In this document: in pieces, positions 2,039 to 34,736 of the stretch
Layout of the letters: each line of letters starts with the position of its first letter
Position numbering within the stretch: position 1 is the first letter of the stretch
NCBI GenBank assembly: GCA_913030835.1
Contig: CAJWDP010000034.1
Coordinates: 1 to 34,847 of the forward strand
Length of the DNA stretch: 34,847 nucleotides
Reading direction: 5' to 3'
Origin: an uncultured Flavobacteriales bacterium
Lineage (GTDB): Bacteria > Bacteroidota > Bacteroidia > Flavobacteriales_D > Parvicellaceae
Notes under the pieces: model-generated
What the model saw: only the letters and a program-made list of their open reading frames with translations
Told to the model about the DNA's origin: nothing
Database searches by the model: none
Position numbers and translations under genes: made by a program

Positions 2039-2476
2039 TCAATTTGCACTTACCCTGAATTCAATGATCTCTGAACCAGCATTGCTGATTGGGTCAATCA
2101 ATTTGAATTTTACTCTTCCGCTCCCCGGTATCCCTTTAGGAAGGACATGAATGGCTACAAATCCGGTCTTTCCCGGGCCAATTGATCGTAAGGTGCCGAA
2201 CTCAGGGATTCCCACTTGGCACTTACCGTAGGCACACATGGAGTAATCCCATCCGGATGGCAACGTGTTTTCCAAACAGGACCACTTCAGCTCCAGCTGC
2301 CCATCTGTATTATTTGCTATCTTGATCTCTGCCAGCTCCAGCTTTTCATTCTTATTGATCGATAAACGGACAATCGAATCGCCTACCACACTAAAACTTG
2401 ATGTGGATAGTTGCCACGAAATCAACGCAGCACTTGCAATCAGAATGGGCAGTAGAATCCTTTTCTTCATCATCAT
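2039..2476 (-). CDS. Secreted Cys-x4-Cys protein, paralogue-like to the first operon gene
   Basis: A 145-residue exported protein with an N-terminal hydrophobic segment (residues 5-22) and no T9SS tail. The mature part is a single beta-rich domain with Trp65, Cys67, NT, Trp76 and the motif CAYGKCQVGIP (Cys81, Cys86), then GF...G.GRVKF..ID. The same order of residues is found in the protein at 4569-5267, so the two share a domain. Three ATG codons lie in a row at the start; the first overlaps the upstream stop in ATGA, implying translational coupling with the multicopper oxidase gene. Function is unknown; a partner or metal-handling role is only inference. Confidence 0.7.
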   Translation of the reverse strand: MMMKKRILLPILIASAALISWQLSTSSFSVVGDSIVRLSINKNEKLELAEIKIANNTDGQLELKWSCLENTLPSGWDYSMCAYGKCQVGIPEFGTLRSIGPGKTGFVAIHVLPKGIPGSGRVKFKLIDPISNAGSEIIEFRVSAN

Positions 2477-3705
2477 TTCTTTATAAACGATTTAGAGGTT
2501 ACGTTGTTGCCATCTGAAAGCGAAAGGATATACTGCCCACTTGCATACTCATTAGTTGACAGAACCAGTGTGTGCTTCCCCTGTTCATATACCCGTGGAA
2601 ATTCAGACAACATCAATTTACCATCGATGCTTACAATACGAAGACTCAAATTGGTTTCCTTCAGAAGATCAAATGAAATCCTTACATCCTGATCAACCGG
2701 ATTCGGGGCAATGGAGAAATCAATTACATTTTCGAATTCCTCCACCTGATTGGGTACGCGAATATCTACTTTAACGTGCTGAATGTTCTTCAATTCGCTC
2801 GTCATCATATCGAAATAATGCACCTCAATTGAGTCTAGAATAGGGACAGAAGACTCTACTAAAACACCGTATCGTTCGCCCGGATACACTTCAATTGTAT
2901 CGCTGAATTCTTCAATGGGCAGCGGTCTTCCATCACTGTCTACAATTCGTGCACCTAGTGAAGAAGGAAAAATCACCTTGTTCGTGCAATAGCCAATGTT
3001 CACCAATCGAAAATAGTTGACGTAGTTCGTTTTTGAATTCAATTCCACAGAATCCTCCAGCTGCTGATCCGACAACCCGTTGATCAAAAAGTAATCGGGA
3101 TTGTATTTGGGCACCAAAAGGGTATCGTGCACTGCTCCATCTATGTGCTCATGATCCAATATTGAATCGGTATGCCAGAATGTATCCAACTCCGACATGA
3201 ACAATAGGGTTTCCGTATCAAACGCATACCCCCCATCCCAGGTTGTATTGCTGCCGTCAGACGGTCGGATAATGATCGGTCCGTACATACCTGCTTGCAG
3301 ATGCAAGGTAGATCCAACATGACAGTGATACAAGTAAGTGCCGGCATGTGGTGCCTCAAAATGATACCAACCGTGTTCCATATGATCGACAGAAAACGAC
3401 AACATCGGAACCCCATCGTTCGCCTGATCGACATCCAAACCATGCAGGTGAATCGTATGGTGGTGCAATTGTGACACATTCCAGAAGTCAATGTGAACGG
3501 AATCTCCCTGATTCGCCTCGATCAAAGGAGCAGGAATTGGAGGATGGGTAGAAAGACTCGGAGCGAATCCATATACACGAAGGGTATCACCATTGGCAAT
3601 CACCTTCTCACCAAGCGTACGACCAATAAGGAATACGTTGGTCTGAGCTTCCGCAAATAAGAAGATCATCAGTAACAAACAGGTTCCTATCAATTTCCGC
3701 ATCAT
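2473..3705 (-). CDS. T9SS-sorted multicopper oxidase-like protein with intact type 1 copper motif
   Basis: A 410-residue exported protein. After a signal peptide (1-20) comes a cupredoxin domain with HHTIHLHG (His83, His86, His88) and a type 1/type 3 copper motif YHCHVGSTLHLQAGM (His127, Cys128, His129, His135, Met140). The usual HCHxxxH spacing is lengthened by two residues. A second beta domain (about 200-320) lacks copper ligands. Residues 328-410 are a T9SS type A sorting domain (IAPNPVDQDV to the end, KSFIKK), so it should be outside the cell or surface bound. It overlaps both neighbours by ATGA. The substrate is unknown. It has one copper-binding cupredoxin domain, so a partner or oligomer is needed to build a trinuclear site. 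Confidence 0.85.
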   Translation of the reverse strand: MMRKLIGTCLLLMIFLFAEAQTNVFLIGRTLGEKVIANGDTLRVYGFAPSLSTHPPIPAPLIEANQGDSVHIDFWNVSQLHHHTIHLHGLDVDQANDGVPMLSFSVDHMEHGWYHFEAPHAGTYLYHCHVGSTLHLQAGMYGPIIIRPSDGSNTTWDGGYAFDTETLLFMSELDTFWHTDSILDHEHIDGAVHDTLLVPKYNPDYFLINGLSDQQLEDSVELNSKTNYVNYFRLVNIGYCTNKVIFPSSLGARIVDSDGRPLPIEEFSDTIEVYPGERYGVLVESSVPILDSIEVHYFDMMTSELKNIQHVKVDIRVPNQVEEFENVIDFSIAPNPVDQDVRISFDLLKETNLSLRIVSIDGKLMLSEFPRVYEQGKHTLVLSTNEYASGQYILSLSDGNNVTSKSFIKK

Positions 3706-4559
3706 TGAATTAAAATGGTTAAAAACATTCCGAACGGATAAAGGCCTCCGCCAGTTATTGACAATAAATTATGATCATGCACCGGATACTCACCCGTTTG
3801 ATGTGGAACAAGGCGCAGTAAATAACCTTCCATTCTCTTAAGTGGAAATGTGTCTTTGATTCGACCAGCGTGCATGGAACTGCTCGTTGAATAGAGTATT
3901 TCGCAATGGTAACCGTGAAAGTGAATGGAATGTTCTGCTTGTCCCGTGTTGGCCATAAAGATCAAAATGGTATCTCCTATATTTCCCTCAACTCGGGCTG
4001 TAGTATCGGAATTGATGTCAGGATTACTCAATCCATTGATCGTAAAATAATCCGGGTAATAGTCAAGCCAATCTACCACACCACCCGAGGCAATGGAATC
4101 ATTCCAATCGCTTTGGTGGTCTTTTATGTTCCAGTAATACGTATTGGCGTTGGCCCCAACTGCAAGAATTCCGGCAAGTCCCATATATGCATTGTTCGGG
4201 TAATTGATGTGATCGTAGTAGATGCACACCCTTGGAGTCGATGAGTGGAAGGTCACTTCCAATGTATCACCTTGCTGAAGCGTATCTTTGTATCCGGAAA
4301 TGCCCCTGATATCAAAACCATGCAGGATCGTATCATTATTTACAATGGTTAATACAAGCGTATCCATTATTCCAACAGAGAGCTGCGCATTCCGATTTTC
4401 GTAAGTTGGTGTGGAATTGAATCCTTTGCAAGGCATTTGTTTGCCGTTCACAAATAACCCCTGTCCCGAATTGATGTATATCGTATCACTTACATTTCCA
4501 GCAAAAAAAATGGTCTGAAACCCAAGTAAACAGACCAATGTGAGTAGGGCACGTTTCAA
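3702..4559 (-). CDS. Multicopper oxidase-like protein lacking the type 1 copper cysteine
   Basis: A 285-residue protein of two cupredoxin domains with a signal peptide (about 1-20) and no sorting tail. The first domain is degenerate. The second has HSIHFHGYH (His210, His213, His215) and GEYPVHDHNLL (His261, Asp262, His263): the histidines for a type 2/3 copper site are kept, but the Cys of the canonical HCH is Asp and the following type 1 His is absent. It may therefore supply trinuclear-site ligands while its neighbour at 2473-3705 carries the type 1 copper (inference). It starts 9 bp after the first operon gene and ends in an ATGA overlap with the next. Confidence 0.8.
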   Translation of the reverse strand: MKRALLTLVCLLGFQTIFFAGNVSDTIYINSGQGLFVNGKQMPCKGFNSTPTYENRNAQLSVGIMDTLVLTIVNNDTILHGFDIRGISGYKDTLQQGDTLEVTFHSSTPRVCIYYDHINYPNNAYMGLAGILAVGANANTYYWNIKDHQSDWNDSIASGGVVDWLDYYPDYFTINGLSNPDINSDTTARVEGNIGDTILIFMANTGQAEHSIHFHGYHCEILYSTSSSMHAGRIKDTFPLKRMEGYLLRLVPHQTGEYPVHDHNLLSITGGGLYPFGMFLTILIQ

Positions 4560-4568
4560 TTTACACCA

Positions 4569-5267
4569 TTATTTTTTGATGACTTTTTTTGTAGAGATCA
4601 ATCCTTCCTCTCCTCTGAAGTTTACGAGATATACTCCCTTCCTGACACCTGAAAAATCAATGTAAGCTAGGCTTCTCGAGTTTAAATTGGCAGATTGGAC
4701 TACTTTACCCAAAACATCTGTTACTACTACAACGCCATTCTCACTGGAAGGATTGTGAACCGTTAGCTGACTCTCAACAGGGTTTGGATAAGCTCCGATT
4801 CTCAACTCGTTTTCTTGAATTGTTGAAATGGAAGGGTCTGGCCAAGACACAAAAAAGCTGACCGTATCACCACGTGAATAGTCATTCTGATCAAACACAT
4901 AGATTTCCACTTTTCCTTCTCCATAATTTAGACCACATGTCATATTGCATTTTATAAATCCAAAGGTTCCCGCTGCCATTTCTGCGGCAGTGATAGCGGT
5001 CATTGCAGCATTGGCAGGAAAGCCAACATAACAACCGGTATAGTCACAAACGGAACAAGACCAATTCGGATCAAATGTGTTCGAGAGCAACTGCCATCTG
5101 AATGTAATGTCTTCCGGAGTAGGCGTTACCACCCGAATTTCAAAACTCTCGTAATTTTCATTGAAGATGGTATCTGTTCGATGCTGGCCCGTTGGGTACA
5201 CAAAATTTTGCGCCATCAAACCGGAGACAAAAGCCAACAATAAAATTGAGGTAAGCAGGTATTTCAT
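4569..5267 (-). CDS. T9SS-sorted secreted Cys-x4-Cys protein, first gene of the multicopper operon
   Basis: A 232-residue exported protein. I start at the ATG at 5265-5267 because it opens a clear signal peptide (MKYLLTSILLLAFVSGLMAQ); the frame is open for 19 more codons upstream. The central domain has RWQLLSNT, Trp69, and the motif CSVCDYTGCYVGFP (Cys71, Cys74, Cys79), plus Cys107 and Cys111. It shares its residue pattern with the protein at 2039-2476. Residues 157-232 form a T9SS type A sorting domain (IGAYPNPVES, ending VIKK). Its promoter with a palindromic operator lies about 55 bp upstream. It has no known enzymatic motif. Confidence 0.75.
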   Translation of the reverse strand: MKYLLTSILLLAFVSGLMAQNFVYPTGQHRTDTIFNENYESFEIRVVTPTPEDITFRWQLLSNTFDPNWSCSVCDYTGCYVGFPANAAMTAITAAEMAAGTFGFIKCNMTCGLNYGEGKVEIYVFDQNDYSRGDTVSFFVSWPDPSISTIQENELRIGAYPNPVESQLTVHNPSSENGVVVVTDVLGKVVQSANLNSRSLAYIDFSGVRKGVYLVNFRGEEGLISTKKVIKK

Positions 5268-5321
5268 AATTCTAGTAACATTTACCATAAAATTACTGAT
5301 TATTTTATTACTCGATAATTC

Positions 5322-5351
5322 CAAAATTGTAATGGAAATTACAATCCAAAA
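5322..5351 (-). promoter_or_regulatory. Promoter of the multicopper operon
   Basis: Read on the minus strand, TTTTG (5347-5351) and CAATTTTG (5322-5329) are separated by 17 bp and match the Bacteroidota -33 TTTG and -7 TAnnTTTG elements (one mismatch). Transcription would start near 5315, giving a leader of about 48 nt to the first operon gene. The spacer is nearly filled by a palindrome. Confidence 0.5.
5326..5345. promoter_or_regulatory. Perfect 8-bp inverted repeat, probable operator
   Basis: ATTGTAAT and ATTACAAT are exact reverse complements around a GGAA centre, a 20-bp site. It sits between the -33 and -7 elements of the multicopper operon promoter, where a bound repressor would block RNA polymerase. 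The sequence does not match a copper-responsive site that I can name with confidence. Confidence 0.55.
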
Positions 5352-7787: not shown

Positions 7788-8702
7788 TCATGAATCGTGA
7801 CGGATGCCCTTGAAGACGCGGAATACATGAAGCAAAGGAGGAAACAGTGCATCCATGGATTCAGCTGCACCATTTGTTGATCCCGGAAGTGCCAACACCA
7901 ACGACTGGTCCTTCACACCGGCTAAACTTCTTGATAACATGGAATAAGGTGTTCGATCCTGACCATAGCTACGCATGGCTTCTGCTATACCCGGAATTTC
8001 TCTATCTAGCAGAGGCCGCAATGATTCAGGTGTAACGTCTCTTGGAGACAACCCTGTACCCCCGGTAAAAATGATCAGGTCCAGCTGTTGCTCAGCGTAC
8101 TTTTTTAATGTCGCTCCAATTACTTCGGGCTCATCCGGTATCACTTCCTGATTCGCTATTTCCGCATTCATTTTTACTAACTTATCAGCAATGGCAGCGC
8201 CTGCTTTATCCTGCTTTTTTCCGGACGACACAGAATCAGAACAAACAACGACCGCGGCACGAATTGTATCTTTAAACTTGTCGGTAAAATCAGATTTTCC
8301 ACCTTTTTTGCTGAGTAATCGAATACCTGCAATCTCCACTCCTTTATCCAAGGGCTTCAACATATCGTATATATTCAACGCCACGATACTTGCTCCGTGC
8401 ATGGCCTCTACTTCTACACCTGTTTTGTAAATCGTCTTGACCGTCACTAAAATGGATATTTCCAGACCATTCACTTCATAGTCAATACCCGTGTATTCGA
8501 TGGGCATTGGATGGCAATCCGGCAATAGCTCAGGTGTTTTCTTTACACCTAAAAGGCCGGCCGCTCTGCTCATGCTAAACACATCGCCTTTAGGAACTGC
8601 ATTGTTGTGGATTGCATCAATCGTCGCTTGCTCGCTGACTTTCACGATTGCCAGAGCGGTTGCAACTCTTAATGTGTTGGATTTAGCCGTTATATCTACC
8701 AT
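7788..8702 (-). CDS. moaCB: Bifunctional MoaC-MoaB/MogA fusion for molybdenum cofactor synthesis
   Basis: A 304-residue fusion. Residues 1-140 are MoaC, which with MoaA forms cyclic pyranopterin monophosphate: KKTPELLPDCHPMPI (54-68), TGVEVEAMHGASIVALNIYDMLK (94-116) and KKGGKSDF (132-139). Residues 147-304 are a MoaB/MogA domain that adenylates molybdopterin: FTGGTGLSPRDVTPES (212-227) and ALPGSTNGAAES (271-282). Such fusions are known in Bacteroidota. It is the last gene of a minus-strand run moeA-mobA-moaD-moaCB, 17 bp after moaD. The start is the ATG at 8700-8702. Confidence 0.9.
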   Translation of the reverse strand: MVDITAKSNTLRVATALAIVKVSEQATIDAIHNNAVPKGDVFSMSRAAGLLGVKKTPELLPDCHPMPIEYTGIDYEVNGLEISILVTVKTIYKTGVEVEAMHGASIVALNIYDMLKPLDKGVEIAGIRLLSKKGGKSDFTDKFKDTIRAAVVVCSDSVSSGKKQDKAGAAIADKLVKMNAEIANQEVIPDEPEVIGATLKKYAEQQLDLIIFTGGTGLSPRDVTPESLRPLLDREIPGIAEAMRSYGQDRTPYSMLSRSLAGVKDQSLVLALPGSTNGAAESMDALFPPLLHVFRVFKGIRHDS

Positions 8703-27697: not shown

Positions 27698-28039
27698 TCA
27701 GAACCATACCCACCTGTTAATTCCTACGTACAAGCCACCCTCCCTTTCCGACAAAGGAAAAACATCGATACCCGTACCCGACCCTAGTCCGGTCTTTAAA
27801 TCGAAAGAATAACGATGATAGGGACATACGACTTTGTTTTCCTCGCACCAACCATCACTTAAGCGTTTACCTTGATGAGGACACTTATCTATTAAGGCCG
27901 TTAGCTCACCATCTTCTGTTTTACATAGAATAATGTTCTTTCCTGCAATCGAATATGCTTTCGGCTTATTTGGAGGAATTTCAACCAAAAGATCTGATTT
28001 TGCACCTATCCTATACCATTTAATTTTTCGAGTAAACAA
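27698..28039 (-). CDS. Small Rieske [2Fe-2S] ferredoxin-like protein
   Basis: A Rieske protein of about 113 residues with the cluster motif CPH-x16-CPYH and the following SFDLKTG. It has no signal or membrane helix, so it should be a soluble ferredoxin or the electron carrier of an oxygenase; no oxygenase gene is nearby. The frame contains no ATG before the domain. In-frame TTG codons are at 28087, 28072 and 28039. I prefer 28039 because an AGAGG motif lies 4 nt upstream and the domain begins soon after (FTRKIKWYRIG). With TTG at 28087 it would have 129 residues. Confidence 0.75.
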   Translation of the reverse strand: MFTRKIKWYRIGAKSDLLVEIPPNKPKAYSIAGKNIILCKTEDGELTALIDKCPHQGKRLSDGWCEENKVVCPYHRYSFDLKTGLGSGTGIDVFPLSEREGGLYVGINRWVWF

Positions 28040-28189
28040 GCTGCCTCTTTTTTTTATACTTCCGTTGAACAACTGAAAATTATGCAAAAACAGGTGGTTA
28101 TGAAAATGAAAGTCAAGGTATAAAAATTACTACCGCACTCTACTCTATCAATACGGTGCGATTTTTGATAAGAACTTAACCAAATTGAA

Positions 28190-28203: not shown

Positions 28204-29211
28204 ATGACACGATTCATTTCTTTGATTTCGCTGAGCTTATTGCTTTCAAGCTGTTTTATTCTTGAAGAATATGAAAATGCGGCTACGGCCGAATCAGAAT
28301 CTGCTAAGAAAGAAAGACAGGATGTCATTCAAGATAGTATCATCGCATATCTGCAAAGTCAGTCTTATGACAAGCAGGAATACATACCTTATACATTTGG
28401 GTCATTGTATTCAAATAAACCTCGGGAAATTGTGGAGCTGGAACAGTTGCATCAAATAAAGGCGGAGCTTCCTACAATGCAAACGAGATACGGCGACAAA
28501 TTTGACAGTATAACGAAAGCAAATGATCAAGAAATTCATTCCAAAAGCGAAGAGATCAGAGAAAAACATTTGTATACGACTTACGACCTCACCCATCTCT
28601 ATTGCATTAAAAAAGAGAACAATGAAATCAAACTCATCGAATCAAACTTCAAGACCTATCCCAATAATGTGATAAAAGATGCTGAGATTATTTTTTCTAC
28701 TTCACTGAATAGCAAAGAGTACGAACTCTTCGAACACTATATCCACCAGGATCCTCTCATTTTTGACAATGATTATAGCTATCAGAAACATTTGAACGCA
28801 AATACCTACGAAAAACTCAACCAATCCATGATAGAAGCGCAGCCGGACAGGAAAGCAGATCTGCTCAAAACAATCTTAAAAAAGGTAGCATTCTATCAAA
28901 AAAATAACGGATTCGATCCGGAAGTATTTACCAACTATTTAATTTCCGAATGGACCAAAAATCCAAGCCTTGACATCACCATTGAAAAAGTGGTGAAAGT
29001 ATCCCCATTGAAACTCATTAAGGAACAGTCTAAAACAGGAGATAGTATACCTAAGGAATCTCTTTTAGGATTTAAGAAATTTGTATTGGTTAGAGTAAAA
29101 ACCAATGATCCTTTGGAATCCGAGTTCCCACTTTACTTCGAATTTGATGAAAATCATGTGCTTATGGGAGTTCTTCCGGTCGAAGGAGAATATCAAAAAT
29201 ATTTTGAATGA
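28204..29211 (+). CDS. Lipoprotein of unknown function, partner of the Cys-repeat protein
   Basis: A 335-residue lipoprotein with a signal peptide ending in a good lipobox, LLSSC (Cys17). The mature protein is rich in Glu, Lys and Tyr, with long predicted helices (residues 25-60 and 85-110) and otherwise no motif that I recognise. Its C-terminal part (KKFVLVRVKTNDPLESEFPLYFEFDENHVLMGVLP) looks like a small beta domain. The stop overlaps the next start in ATGA, so it should be made together with the six-repeat cysteine protein. Function is unknown. Confidence 0.7.
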   Translation: MTRFISLISLSLLLSSCFILEEYENAATAESESAKKERQDVIQDSIIAYLQSQSYDKQEYIPYTFGSLYSNKPREIVELEQLHQIKAELPTMQTRYGDKFDSITKANDQEIHSKSEEIREKHLYTTYDLTHLYCIKKENNEIKLIESNFKTYPNNVIKDAEIIFSTSLNSKEYELFEHYIHQDPLIFDNDYSYQKHLNANTYEKLNQSMIEAQPDRKADLLKTILKKVAFYQKNNGFDPEVFTNYLISEWTKNPSLDITIEKVVKVSPLKLIKEQSKTGDSIPKESLLGFKKFVLVRVKTNDPLESEFPLYFEFDENHVLMGVLPVEGEYQKYFE

Positions 29212-30422
29212 ATCGGGCAGTTTTGTTCATCCTGCTGCTGTTTCCCACCTTTTTGCTGGCCCAAGAAACTTCCATCTTTGAATACATCAACTATAAAGGA
29301 GACACGCTGCTTCTAAAAACCATTACTGCTCCAACAGTTTGTGATTGCATCAAAAAAGATTACCGCAATCTGGATCAAAAGAAAATTTGTGACAAATTGT
29401 ATGATTATGATTTCATGTCCATTCAGGACAAAAGAGAATTTGATGCGAGAAAATCCGTTTGCAACGACCCCTCCCTCTGTGATTGTGCCCTTGCCGACCT
29501 TAATGACAGAGGCTTAATCCAAGCATGCGACACCAAGTTTGATCTCGATTCATTCGATAAGCAGGAAAAACAGCAAGTGATTCAAATGATGGAGCAATGT
29601 TCTGAAAAGGACTTGACTTATCCGAAGCTACTTGCTCAATCAGCTAAAGAAACCAGTATTTGTGATTGTATCAATTTAAACGATGCCAGTATAGCGTTGA
29701 GAAATGAATGCAATACGAAGTTTTTCGATGCAAAAAATCTAGGGGAAGAAACAATTGCTAAAAATATGAGCTTACTTCAAGAATGTATCGAGAAAAAGCA
29801 ATTTTCTATTGACCCAACGCTCTGCGAATGCAAATTATTCTCAGAAACGGATGCAGAATTCAAGGTGGCGTGTGCTGAAAAATATGACACGTCCGAAATG
29901 GCTTCTGTTGAATTGATCGATTACTACTTAGCACTTGAACTTTGCAATGAATTGGAACTTTATACTGCGCTAAACAAGATCAATAGAGAAAAGAACTTTC
30001 CTAACCAGAATGACCCAATTCAAACAAAATCCTTCCTGCCTAGATACCGAAATTTATATTACAACAACGATAATTTCCTCCCTACTAAGAAATATTCCTC
30101 CAAAGTGCAAAACCAAATTGATGAAATCGCATTGATAAAAGTTTGCGATTGTCTACATCTCGACTCGACCCAGATCGAAACCATGGAAAAGTGCATGGAC
30201 TATTTCAGGCTCGAGCTGATCTCGGAAAAAGAGGCGAATTTGCTTCAAACGATAGAAGCAACTTGCGCCGGTATGCCGGATTCTATATCCATATGCAATT
30301 GCATCAAGATACCGGATCGTGCTAAATCCGCTGAGGAAAAAGAAAAATGCAAAGAGCAATTGGATTCGCTAACTACGAAAGAATTGATAAAATACCTTAC
30401 CGGAGAGGAATCCTGTGAGTAA
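29208..30422 (+). CDS. Secreted protein with six 4-cysteine repeats (CxC-x13-C-x23-C)
   Basis: A 404-residue exported protein (signal peptide about 1-19, ending LLAQ). It has exactly 24 cysteines, all in six repeats: 45/47/61/85, 91/93/107/131, 152/154/168/193, 206/208/222/246, 313/315/329/353 and 363/365/381/403. The spacing is CxC-x13-C-x21..24-C, with a typical start (V/I/L)C(D/E/N)C and an amphipathic helix before the last Cys. Repeats 4 and 5 are separated by a 66-residue Asn/Tyr-rich linker. No known domain comes to mind; disulfide-knotted helices or metal binding are both possible. It is coupled to the upstream lipoprotein by ATGA. Confidence 0.75.
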   Translation: MNRAVLFILLLFPTFLLAQETSIFEYINYKGDTLLLKTITAPTVCDCIKKDYRNLDQKKICDKLYDYDFMSIQDKREFDARKSVCNDPSLCDCALADLNDRGLIQACDTKFDLDSFDKQEKQQVIQMMEQCSEKDLTYPKLLAQSAKETSICDCINLNDASIALRNECNTKFFDAKNLGEETIAKNMSLLQECIEKKQFSIDPTLCECKLFSETDAEFKVACAEKYDTSEMASVELIDYYLALELCNELELYTALNKINREKNFPNQNDPIQTKSFLPRYRNLYYNNDNFLPTKKYSSKVQNQIDEIALIKVCDCLHLDSTQIETMEKCMDYFRLELISEKEANLLQTIEATCAGMPDSISICNCIKIPDRAKSAEEKEKCKEQLDSLTTKELIKYLTGEESCE

Positions 30423-32491: not shown

Positions 32492-33650
32492 TTATTCCGC
32501 CGTTATCGGATCATTTACTTTCTTTTCATTGAATTTAATACCGTACTCTGAAAGCTTATCCAATACAGGATTATAGATTTCTGCATGAGTGGGTAACTGA
32601 ACGCCTTTCGATTGTATCGTTCCGTTTAAAATCATTTCAGCACAAATTGCGACCGGATAACCGACAGTGTCACTCATAGCCGTGTACACCTGATCTTTAC
32701 CGATATGCACCATGGATGATTCGATCCCAAATTTTTTACCATTCAAATAATAGCCAAACTTGTGCCACATCACAATCATGTCCTTGTCCTCATCCGAAAG
32801 GGACCATTTGTCTTTTAATATCTTCTGCAGCATTTGTGCCGGTGTTCCATCTTTTCCTAGATTAACGGGCTCGGAATCAAATAACCCAAGCCATTCTAGT
32901 TTTTCCCAAAGCGTATCGTCCTCATCGATCTTCAAATAGTGACGCAATTTTAGCTCTACGCTATCGTGGCGGTTGTATCGAAGGAATGAATTGATGTATT
33001 CTCGCTTTGTCATGTGCTCCGATCCTTCAATTACATAGGAATCATCCGTGCATCCCAACTGCACAAAAACATCCCAGGCCCTGCAGAAACCTACACGACG
33101 AAGTGTTCCTCGGTAAATCGTATCTATATTTTCCAAACCATAGATCGATCGATATTTAAGAGAGTCGCGATTTGCATATCCTTCAAACCTACCATAACCG
33201 TCGATGTCGATGAACTCCGTTCTCCGAAACAACTTTGTATAAGGTATGTACTTATATTGTTTATTGTGTATGAACTTAGCTGCTCCGCCTTGTCCTGCTA
33301 ACACTACGTTTCTCGGATTCCAGGTGAATTTATACTTCCAAGGGTTATTTTCACTTTCCGGAGCAAGGAGACCTCCGGTGAATGACTCAAATTGAAAAAT
33401 TTCGCCTCCTTCGGCTTCTATCTCATCCAAAATCTTTTTAGCCGACATGTGGTCTATTCCAGGGTCTAGGCCAATTTCGTTCATAATAATAATGCCTGCT
33501 TCTTTAGCCGCTCCATCAAGCTCCTTCATCTCGTTCGACACATAGGAAGGCGTTAAGACATTTTTACCAAATCGAATGCAGTCTTTCACAACCTCTACAT
33601 GAAATCTTGCCGGAACCATAGAGATAACAATATCACAATTATCAAAGAAA
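32492..33650 (-). pseudogene. Saccharopine-dehydrogenase-like gene, N-terminal part missing
   Basis: About 380 residues of a saccharopine dehydrogenase family enzyme (lysine/alpha-aminoadipate or carboxynorspermidine type). Conserved blocks run from CDIVISMVPARFHVEVVKDCI through NVLTPSYVSNEMKELD and NEIGLDPGIDHMSAKKI to HEIG-type C-terminal sequence (VGYPVAICAEMILNG). About 95 N-terminal residues with the nucleotide-binding GAGxxG motif are missing. The frame continues to 33748 only as an antisense reading of the insertion element, starting at a TTG, and those residues are not part of the family. The break lies near 33625-33650. Without the Rossmann start the product should be inactive. Confidence 0.8.
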
Positions 33651-34736
33651 TACGAAATCACACCAAAGACTATCCAAAATTGGAAGAAGCAATTTTTGAG
33701 CAATGCTTCAATGGCATTTGAGCCAGCAAAAGTAGTCAGTGAGTACAAAACAGCAATTGAGGAGCTAAAATCTCAAAATGATGAGTTAGCAAAAGCGCTA
33801 GGTAAAGCTACAGTAGAGAGGGACTGGGCTTTGGGAAAGCTAAGAGGCTTGGATACACCAAATAAAAGAAATCTTGTCGATTCCAAGCTAGAAGATTTAC
33901 CAATGGCAAGACAGTGCGAATTATTGAAGATAAATAGATCCATGCTTTATTATCAGCCAAAAATAATGAGCTTATATAATAAAAAGATTATGGATAGAAT
34001 AGACGAAATATATACAGATAACCCAGATTATGGCTATCGTTTTATGCATAAATCATTATTAGAAGAAGGCTTTGTCATTGGCAGAGATCGTACTCTTAAA
34101 TATATGAGTGTTATGGGTATAGAAGCTCTTTATCCAAAACAAAAGAAATCTATTTCTACTCAGAATAAAGCGCATAAGGTGTATCCATATCTTCTTGAGC
34201 CTTATTGGCAAACTTCCAAGAAAGGCAGTCAGTCTGTATATGTACCAAGATCAAATGAAGTGTGGAGCGGTGATATAACATACATTAGAACACCAAGTGG
34301 CTTTATGTATATGGCGGCAATTATTGATTGGCATAGTAAAGCTATCTTGAGTTATAAACTATCAAACTCAATGGATTCTAGCCTTGTAACAAGTATTTTA
34401 GAAGAGGCTCTTAGCAAATATCCAGCTCCACTGATATTCAATAGCGATCAGGGTAGTCAATATACTGGCTCAGAACATATAAGAATATTAGAGAACCACG
34501 GTATACAAATCTCTATGAATGGTAAAGGCAGAAGCATTGATAACATCATCATGGAGAGATTTTTTAGAACTCTAAAATATAATTGTATATTTATAAATGA
34601 ATTTAAAAATATTTCAGAACTTAAGGAGGGGATTAATAACTATGTAGACAAATATAATAACAGAAGATTTCATTCTAGTATTGGTTATAAAAAACCTATG
34701 GATGTTTATCTGAGTGCATTTAAAAATGCAGCTTAA
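33630..34736 (+). CDS. IS3-family transposase (orfA-orfB fused), 5'-truncated
   Basis: About 369 codons remain. The start shows an orfA helix-turn-helix (ISQLSKKYEITPKTIQNWKKQFL) that lies upstream of the first usable ATG at 33711. Then come NDELAKALGKATVERDWALGKL, the orfB N-terminal part with MLYYQPK, and an rve integrase core with the DDE triad: VWSGDITYI, IFNSDQGSQYTG and MERFFRTLKYN. A and B parts lie in one frame, with no need for the -1 shift usual in IS3 elements. The catalytic core looks intact, but loss of the DNA-binding N-terminus and left end should make it immobile. Confidence 0.8.
   Translation: MSQLSKKYEITPKTIQNWKKQFLSNASMAFEPAKVVSEYKTAIEELKSQNDELAKALGKATVERDWALGKLRGLDTPNKRNLVDSKLEDLPMARQCELLKINRSMLYYQPKIMSLYNKKIMDRIDEIYTDNPDYGYRFMHKSLLEEGFVIGRDRTLKYMSVMGIEALYPKQKKSISTQNKAHKVYPYLLEPYWQTSKKGSQSVYVPRSNEVWSGDITYIRTPSGFMYMAAIIDWHSKAILSYKLSNSMDSSLVTSILEEALSKYPAPLIFNSDQGSQYTGSEHIRILENHGIQISMNGKGRSIDNIIMERFFRTLKYNCIFINEFKNISELKEGINNYVDKYNNRRFHSSIGYKKPMDVYLSAFKNAA

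Follow-up and report, generated by a model that had tools for sequence, protein, structure and literature searches.

Twin CX9C (CHCH) hairpins carry two CX9C motifs, with two disulfides stapling their short helices, and the cysteines of plant nsLTPs follow the eight-Cys motif order C..C..CC..CXC..C..C. Plant nsLTPs are helical, and each of the two cysteines of their CXC is bonded to a partner of its own (PMC4226865). They resemble the Cys-repeat protein analyzed here in being exported helical proteins with a CXC (PMC4226865). They differ from it in that a single domain holds eight Cys, spaced in another way, and no match to them was obtained in this study.

The Cys-repeat protein is encoded in the window, by which we mean the whole 34,847-nucleotide stretch of DNA that was analyzed. 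In comparison with the nsLTP motif, its units have four Cys each, with CxC placed first and no adjacent CC. The CHCH arrangement is not found either: no gap of 9 occurs in any unit, CxC-x13-C-x23-C being present instead, and a gap of this length is seen just once, in the stretch that separates unit 5 from unit 6.

The Cys-repeat gene and its cysteine pattern

The features of the gene pair are as follows (window coordinates).

28204..29211, + strand: partner gene, a 335-aa lipoprotein with the lipobox ...LLLSSC17
29208..30422, + strand: Cys-repeat protein, ATG start, 404 aa, signal-peptide-like N-terminus (about residues 1-19)
29292..29303, + strand: YKGD before unit 1, invariant in 7/7 aligned orthologues and missing in the G048 protein
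29340..29462, + strand: unit 1, C45-C85 (Cys 45, 47, 61, 85)
29478..29600, + strand: unit 2, C91-C131 (Cys 91, 93, 107, 131)
29661..29786, + strand: unit 3, C152-C193 (Cys 152, 154, 168, 193)
29823..29945, + strand: unit 4, C206-C246 (Cys 206, 208, 222, 246)
29946..30143, + strand: Cys-free linker between units 4 and 5, 66 residues (71 in G002, 24 in the g9 orthologues)
30144..30266, + strand: unit 5, C313-C353 (Cys 313, 315, 329, 353)
30294..30416, + strand: unit 6, C363-C403, with x15 and x21 (Cys 363, 365, 381, 403), present in G000 and G002

The export signal, the cysteine pattern, the number of units and the adjacency of the two genes are all read from the sequence itself. The putative signal peptide ends in ...FLLAQ and lacks a lipobox Cys; localization of the protein in the envelope is predicted.

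A previous sequence-only reading had proposed that all cysteines of the mature protein fall into six regular repeats, whose first spacings hardly vary and which start with (V/I/L)C(D/E/N)C. This description was borne out. All 24 Cys of the protein lie inside six CxC-x13-C-x23-C units and none outside, and the proposed start was seen in 6/6 units. The intra-unit gaps are 1-13-23 in four units, 1-13-24 in unit 3 and 1-15-21 in unit 6. When the sequence from residue 19 onward was shuffled 10,000 times, a CxC whose first Cys is followed by another Cys at a distance of 12-18 residues appeared 0.46 times on average and at most 4 times, compared with 6 times in the real protein. Spacing between consecutive units is irregular (5, 20, 12, 66 and 9 residues), and the units of the window protein share 16-35% pairwise identity.

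The repeat had also been regarded as unrecognized, and database searches agreed with this view. The window protein matched no Pfam family (0 families), only one NCBIfam entry far below its cut-off, and no sequence in the PDB; its relatives in G048, G002 and G038, together with five single-unit proteins (see below), gave nothing above the Pfam or NCBIfam cut-offs. A known Cys-repeat family was therefore rejected as the identity of the protein, since Pfam, NCBIfam and PDB sequences gave none. HMG-box matches (E 0.046 and weaker), as well as a sub-cut-off HMG_box match of the G048 protein, were dismissed as chance helix similarity. Among the open-licence papers listed in literature searches, none was relevant to the protein or its unit. 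The Cys-repeat protein is a new, unnamed family of a recognizable kind, namely exported Cys-patterned helical repeats.

Distribution of orthologues and age of the array

The Cys-repeat protein is single-copy in its own genome. Orthologues were detected in 3/3 genomes of the genus and 7/39 genomes of the family (2/9 genera), and a profile built from seven orthologues matched 8/399 Flavobacteriales genomes (3/70 genera), the eighth genome (G048) being a member of another family. Where the gene is complete, six units are encoded (G000 and G002) or five (G032, G034, G038 and G048); in G001 and G033 the contig ends within the gene, and both fit the pattern up to that point. The six complete orthologues contain 24, 24, 20, 20, 20 and 20 mature Cys, all of them inside units.

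Units correspond across genomes by their position in the array. Unit 1 of the window protein and that of G002 share 69% identity, and the best match of each of window units 1-4 is the same-numbered unit in 4/4 g9 orthologues; positional matching fails for unit 4 when G002 and G038 are compared with each other, in either direction. Units 5 and 6, as well as the G048 units, show no clear positional correspondence. Recent tandem duplication of units 1-4 was rejected, given 16-35% identity within the protein versus positional matches across genera. Given this positional match of units 1-4, the array is older than the divergence of the two genera concerned, that of the window protein and g9.

A phylum-wide search with the repeat profile matched 5/395 genomes at E 0.01, namely the own genome and four weak matches (E 0.0047-0.0078). 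No repeat protein was seen at the four weak loci (L055-L058), which were taken as chance matches; that of L057 is a 105-aa frame opposite long ORFs.

Single-unit four-Cys proteins in Flavobacteriales

A weak repeat-profile match in G057 (E 0.0067) drew attention to a run of small lipoproteins that carry the pattern [VIL]C[DEN]C...C...C. A profile of six lipoproteins from this run matches 23/199 Flavobacteriales genomes at E 0.01. Thirty of these loci were fetched, 5 of which (L100, L102, L103, L105 and L108) had no matching ORF. Counted from the motif onward, the number of Cys is exactly four in 32 of the 35 distinct motif ORFs of the 30 loci, in a sample that leans to four Cys because the ORFs were chosen by profile and motif; the others comprise one with eight Cys (two sets), one with five, and one spurious 46-aa frame (L086). 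Like the Cys-repeat protein, the single-unit proteins are exported, start the unit with [VIL]C[DEN]C and have a charged helical stretch before the last Cys. They differ in usually having one unit and a lipobox, and in a C2-C3 spacing that ranges from 13 to over 30.

Profile comparison (hhalign) of the single-unit profile with the repeat profile gave a probability of 90.5%. The repeat HMM scored 25 single-unit domains at 243.6 bits in total, compared with a mean of 94.6 (sd 17.4, max 150.5) for 300 sets of decoys that retain all cysteines and the residues around CxC; these 25 domains were hand-picked, with ten or so ORFs left out, and the sample leans to similarity because the domains were reached via the repeat profile. 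Individually, 12/25 single units beat 95% of their decoys, and several fall below their own decoy mean. The reverse test gave mixed results. The window protein scored like its decoys (154/200 D1 and 155/200 D2 decoys scored as high), and neither G002 nor G048 exceeded decoys; G001 exceeded the laxer decoys alone, and the four g9 orthologues exceeded nearly all (at most 7/200 as high). Profile A7 finds the window protein at E 0.02, and A8 fails to do so at E 0.001. By these comparisons, the single-unit proteins are probable, not proven, relatives of the Cys-repeat units. Since the single unit probably occurs in small lipoproteins, the Cys-repeat protein probably strings together copies of a module that is more common than the array. 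Across the phylum, single-unit profile A8 matched 1/375 genomes at E 0.001, a genome that had supplied a seed; by the phylum-wide profile searches, with the limited sensitivity of so short a profile, the module is seen solely in Flavobacteriales.

Two arrangements were observed at the single-unit loci. Seven small CDC-type ORFs stand in a row at positions 471-3163 of L083 (G057 contig C71), and in the last of them the signal peptide and the CDC part are in different frames. At L088, L090, L091 and L096, two different CxC...C...C small ORFs lie near each other, a possible conserved pair.

Predicted structure and the proposed role of the cysteines

The structure model of the Cys-repeat protein is weak (pLDDT 59, pTM 0.34) and all-helical past the first 40 residues. 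Its helices at residues 44-49, 55-64 and 72-86 surround C45/C47, C61 and C85, with ten-residue blocks at pLDDT 66-84. The model thus also predicts, at low to middling confidence, the helix that had been anticipated from the sequence ahead of the last Cys. Neither Foldseek (best E 0.58) nor VIA-align (best Z 3.3 over 48 residues) gave a fold match for the full-length model; the missing match does not show a new fold.

Our preferred reading, to which we give an even chance, is that helical units, each stapled by disulfides, make up a scaffold or binding arm of the envelope that acts together with the partner. The exported, probably envelope-associated protein would be a tandem array of a compact helical unit, with CxC in the first turn of a short, Ser/Thr-capped helix, Cys3 in a second helix and Cys4 at the end of a third. 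The CxC thiols would point in different directions and bond to Cys3 and Cys4 of their own unit, giving two disulfides per unit. The units, made rigid in this way, would act as a scaffold or binding arm, and the product of the upstream gene may bind the array physically, anchoring or receiving it.

Residue preferences around the CxC are consistent with such capping. S/T is found at -2 of the first Cys in 33/38 repeats, and D/E/N between the CxC cysteines in 35/38. The S/T-x-C-D-C start fits an S-x-x-D helix capping box, which would account for the Asp without a metal, and the geometry of a helix capped in this manner would turn the two thiols in different directions. For the single units this argument carries less weight, because S/T/D/N occurs at -2 in just 13/25 of them. 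Taken together, the four-Cys single units, the capping geometry and the nsLTP CXC precedent make two intra-unit disulfides the simplest reading.

Cys numbers that are multiples of four would be expected just as much from Cys4 metal sites, which counts against the disulfide reading. Each unit might be a Cys4 site for Zn, Cu(I) or iron-sulphur, and the protein a six-site metal buffer or carrier of the envelope; we consider this unlikely, though it is the strongest competitor and deserves some weight, as the four Cys per unit are all retained in orthologues and the D of CDC could tune a site. If the CxC lies in the first turn of a helix, however, its i/i+2 residues would point about 200 degrees apart, a poor arrangement for a shared site. 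Furthermore, His is unconserved in the units (any His in 8/38 repeats), known metal families gave no match, and no recognizable metal transporter, chaperone or sensor is a constant neighbour at the loci listed, which were read by eye.

Neither of the two disulfide-generating enzymes sought was found: DsbB had no match in this genome (control positive in 6/14), and VKOR had none in 39/39 genomes of the family, 15 of them at least 90% complete (control positive in 3/14). These absences count against the disulfide reading, for which spontaneous oxidation is a possible source of the bonds. They would suit the metal sites, whose thiols might stay reduced, and they also favour a thiol-disulfide redox relay or buffer of the envelope, in which the CxC at the helix start would be a redox-active pair and each molecule would have many such sites. 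The CxC of unit 1 is indeed at a predicted helix start, and I/V/L directly precedes the CxC in 34/38 repeats, in line with this proposal. We nevertheless hold the redox role to be improbable: Cys3 and Cys4 are conserved as much as the CxC, which suggests structural pairing, and no thioredoxin family match was obtained in Pfam or NCBIfam.

The partner gene and its neighbourhood

The end of the partner gene overlaps the start codon of the Cys-repeat gene by ATGA, and the same overlap is found in L008 and L022; given this overlap, translation of the two genes may be coupled. A partner homologue lies upstream in 8/8 genomes with the Cys protein and is the immediate neighbour in 7. The exception is G048, where a 169-aa gene stands between the two and the partner has an ordinary signal peptide with no clear lipobox. 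The earlier suggestion that the repeat protein is translated with a lipoprotein finds support in the constant upstream gene, whereas the lipoprotein nature of the partner does not extend clearly to G048.

Partner homologues are more widespread than the Cys protein. They were found in 79/398 Flavobacteriales genomes (26/70 genera), including all 8 genomes with the Cys protein; the two Flavobacteriales samples of 398 and 399 genomes seem identical by their handle numbers. At 13 of the 71 other partner loci (L068-L080), no ORF of at least 80 aa with at least two CxC was present within about 1.5 kb. An obligate gene pair was thus rejected in one direction: the partner does not need the Cys protein, because the latter was detected in just 8 of the 79 partner genomes. 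The Cys protein would seem to have joined an envelope gene that is older and more widespread, unless it has been lost many times.

The partner was below the Pfam and NCBIfam cut-offs, and no solved sequence matched it. In its AlphaFold model (pLDDT 79.3, pTM 0.68), regions 32-168 and 237-332 resemble cystatin/NTF2-like chains, with Z not above background; the best VIA-align result, Z 8.0 over 77 residues at 2.8 A (1wnh), is not above the typical background of the tool. NTF2-like folds often bind ligands. This resemblance, along with the predicted helices and a CXC-containing Cys pattern like that of nsLTPs, would be compatible with a helical binder of a small ligand (lipid, haem or another hydrophobic molecule) that works in the style of plant nsLTPs and delivers to the partner. 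Such a role has a low probability in our estimation, as a unit of 40-45 residues offers little room for a cavity; in addition, nsLTPs were absent among the sequence and fold matches listed, which does not exclude them.

The outer neighbours of the gene pair differ among genomes. In the window the pair is flanked by a small Rieske gene (27698-28087, - strand), which is divergent and adjoins it, and by a PolyA_pol/HD gene of the CCA-adding type. The L008 neighbourhood looks the same by sequence, and the g9 loci have other neighbours. Near the pair in G048, a divergent Rieske-like ORF (L021, 9409-9756, + strand) and a ComEC-like gene were named by sequence likeness. The Rieske-type gene near the pair in the window and, by likeness, in L008 and G048 would fit the redox relay considered above, but two g9 neighbourhoods have no Rieske-type ORF among the ORFs listed down to 90 aa.

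Several other genes of the window were also observed. In the region 32492-34736, a transposase gene (HTH_21, rve), which we take to be IS3-like, sits where a saccharopine dehydrogenase gene of the opposite strand begins. The NADP-binding domain of the latter matches just from profile position 68, and the contig ends soon after. In L008 a like gene begins further upstream, though split in two ORFs. The transposase insertion has probably cut the saccharopine dehydrogenase gene in the window. At 2473-5324 (- strand), two genes for exported multicopper-oxidase-like proteins are neighbours; the first encodes a T9SS sorting domain (Por_Secre_tail), and a third gene beside them has such a domain too, along with a C-x2-C-x4-C motif. 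One ORF at 7788-8702 (- strand) presumably joins MoaC-like and MoaB/MogA-like parts.

Significance

The unit reaches no Pfam or NCBIfam cut-off, though its probable relatives occur in 23/199 Flavobacteriales genomes. In its furthest-reaching form, which we put forward as a long shot, the finding would be a helical module with four Cys, so far undescribed, which is widespread in the envelopes of Flavobacteriales, is arrayed here by five or six, and either acquires its disulfides via an unknown route or makes up a new multi-site metal store. The unit offers a handle on the role of unnamed small lipoproteins of Flavobacteriales, and on the oxidation of envelope cysteines in bacteria where DsbB and VKOR were not found. 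With 24 ordered Cys in one protein, the question of envelope oxidation becomes directly measurable.
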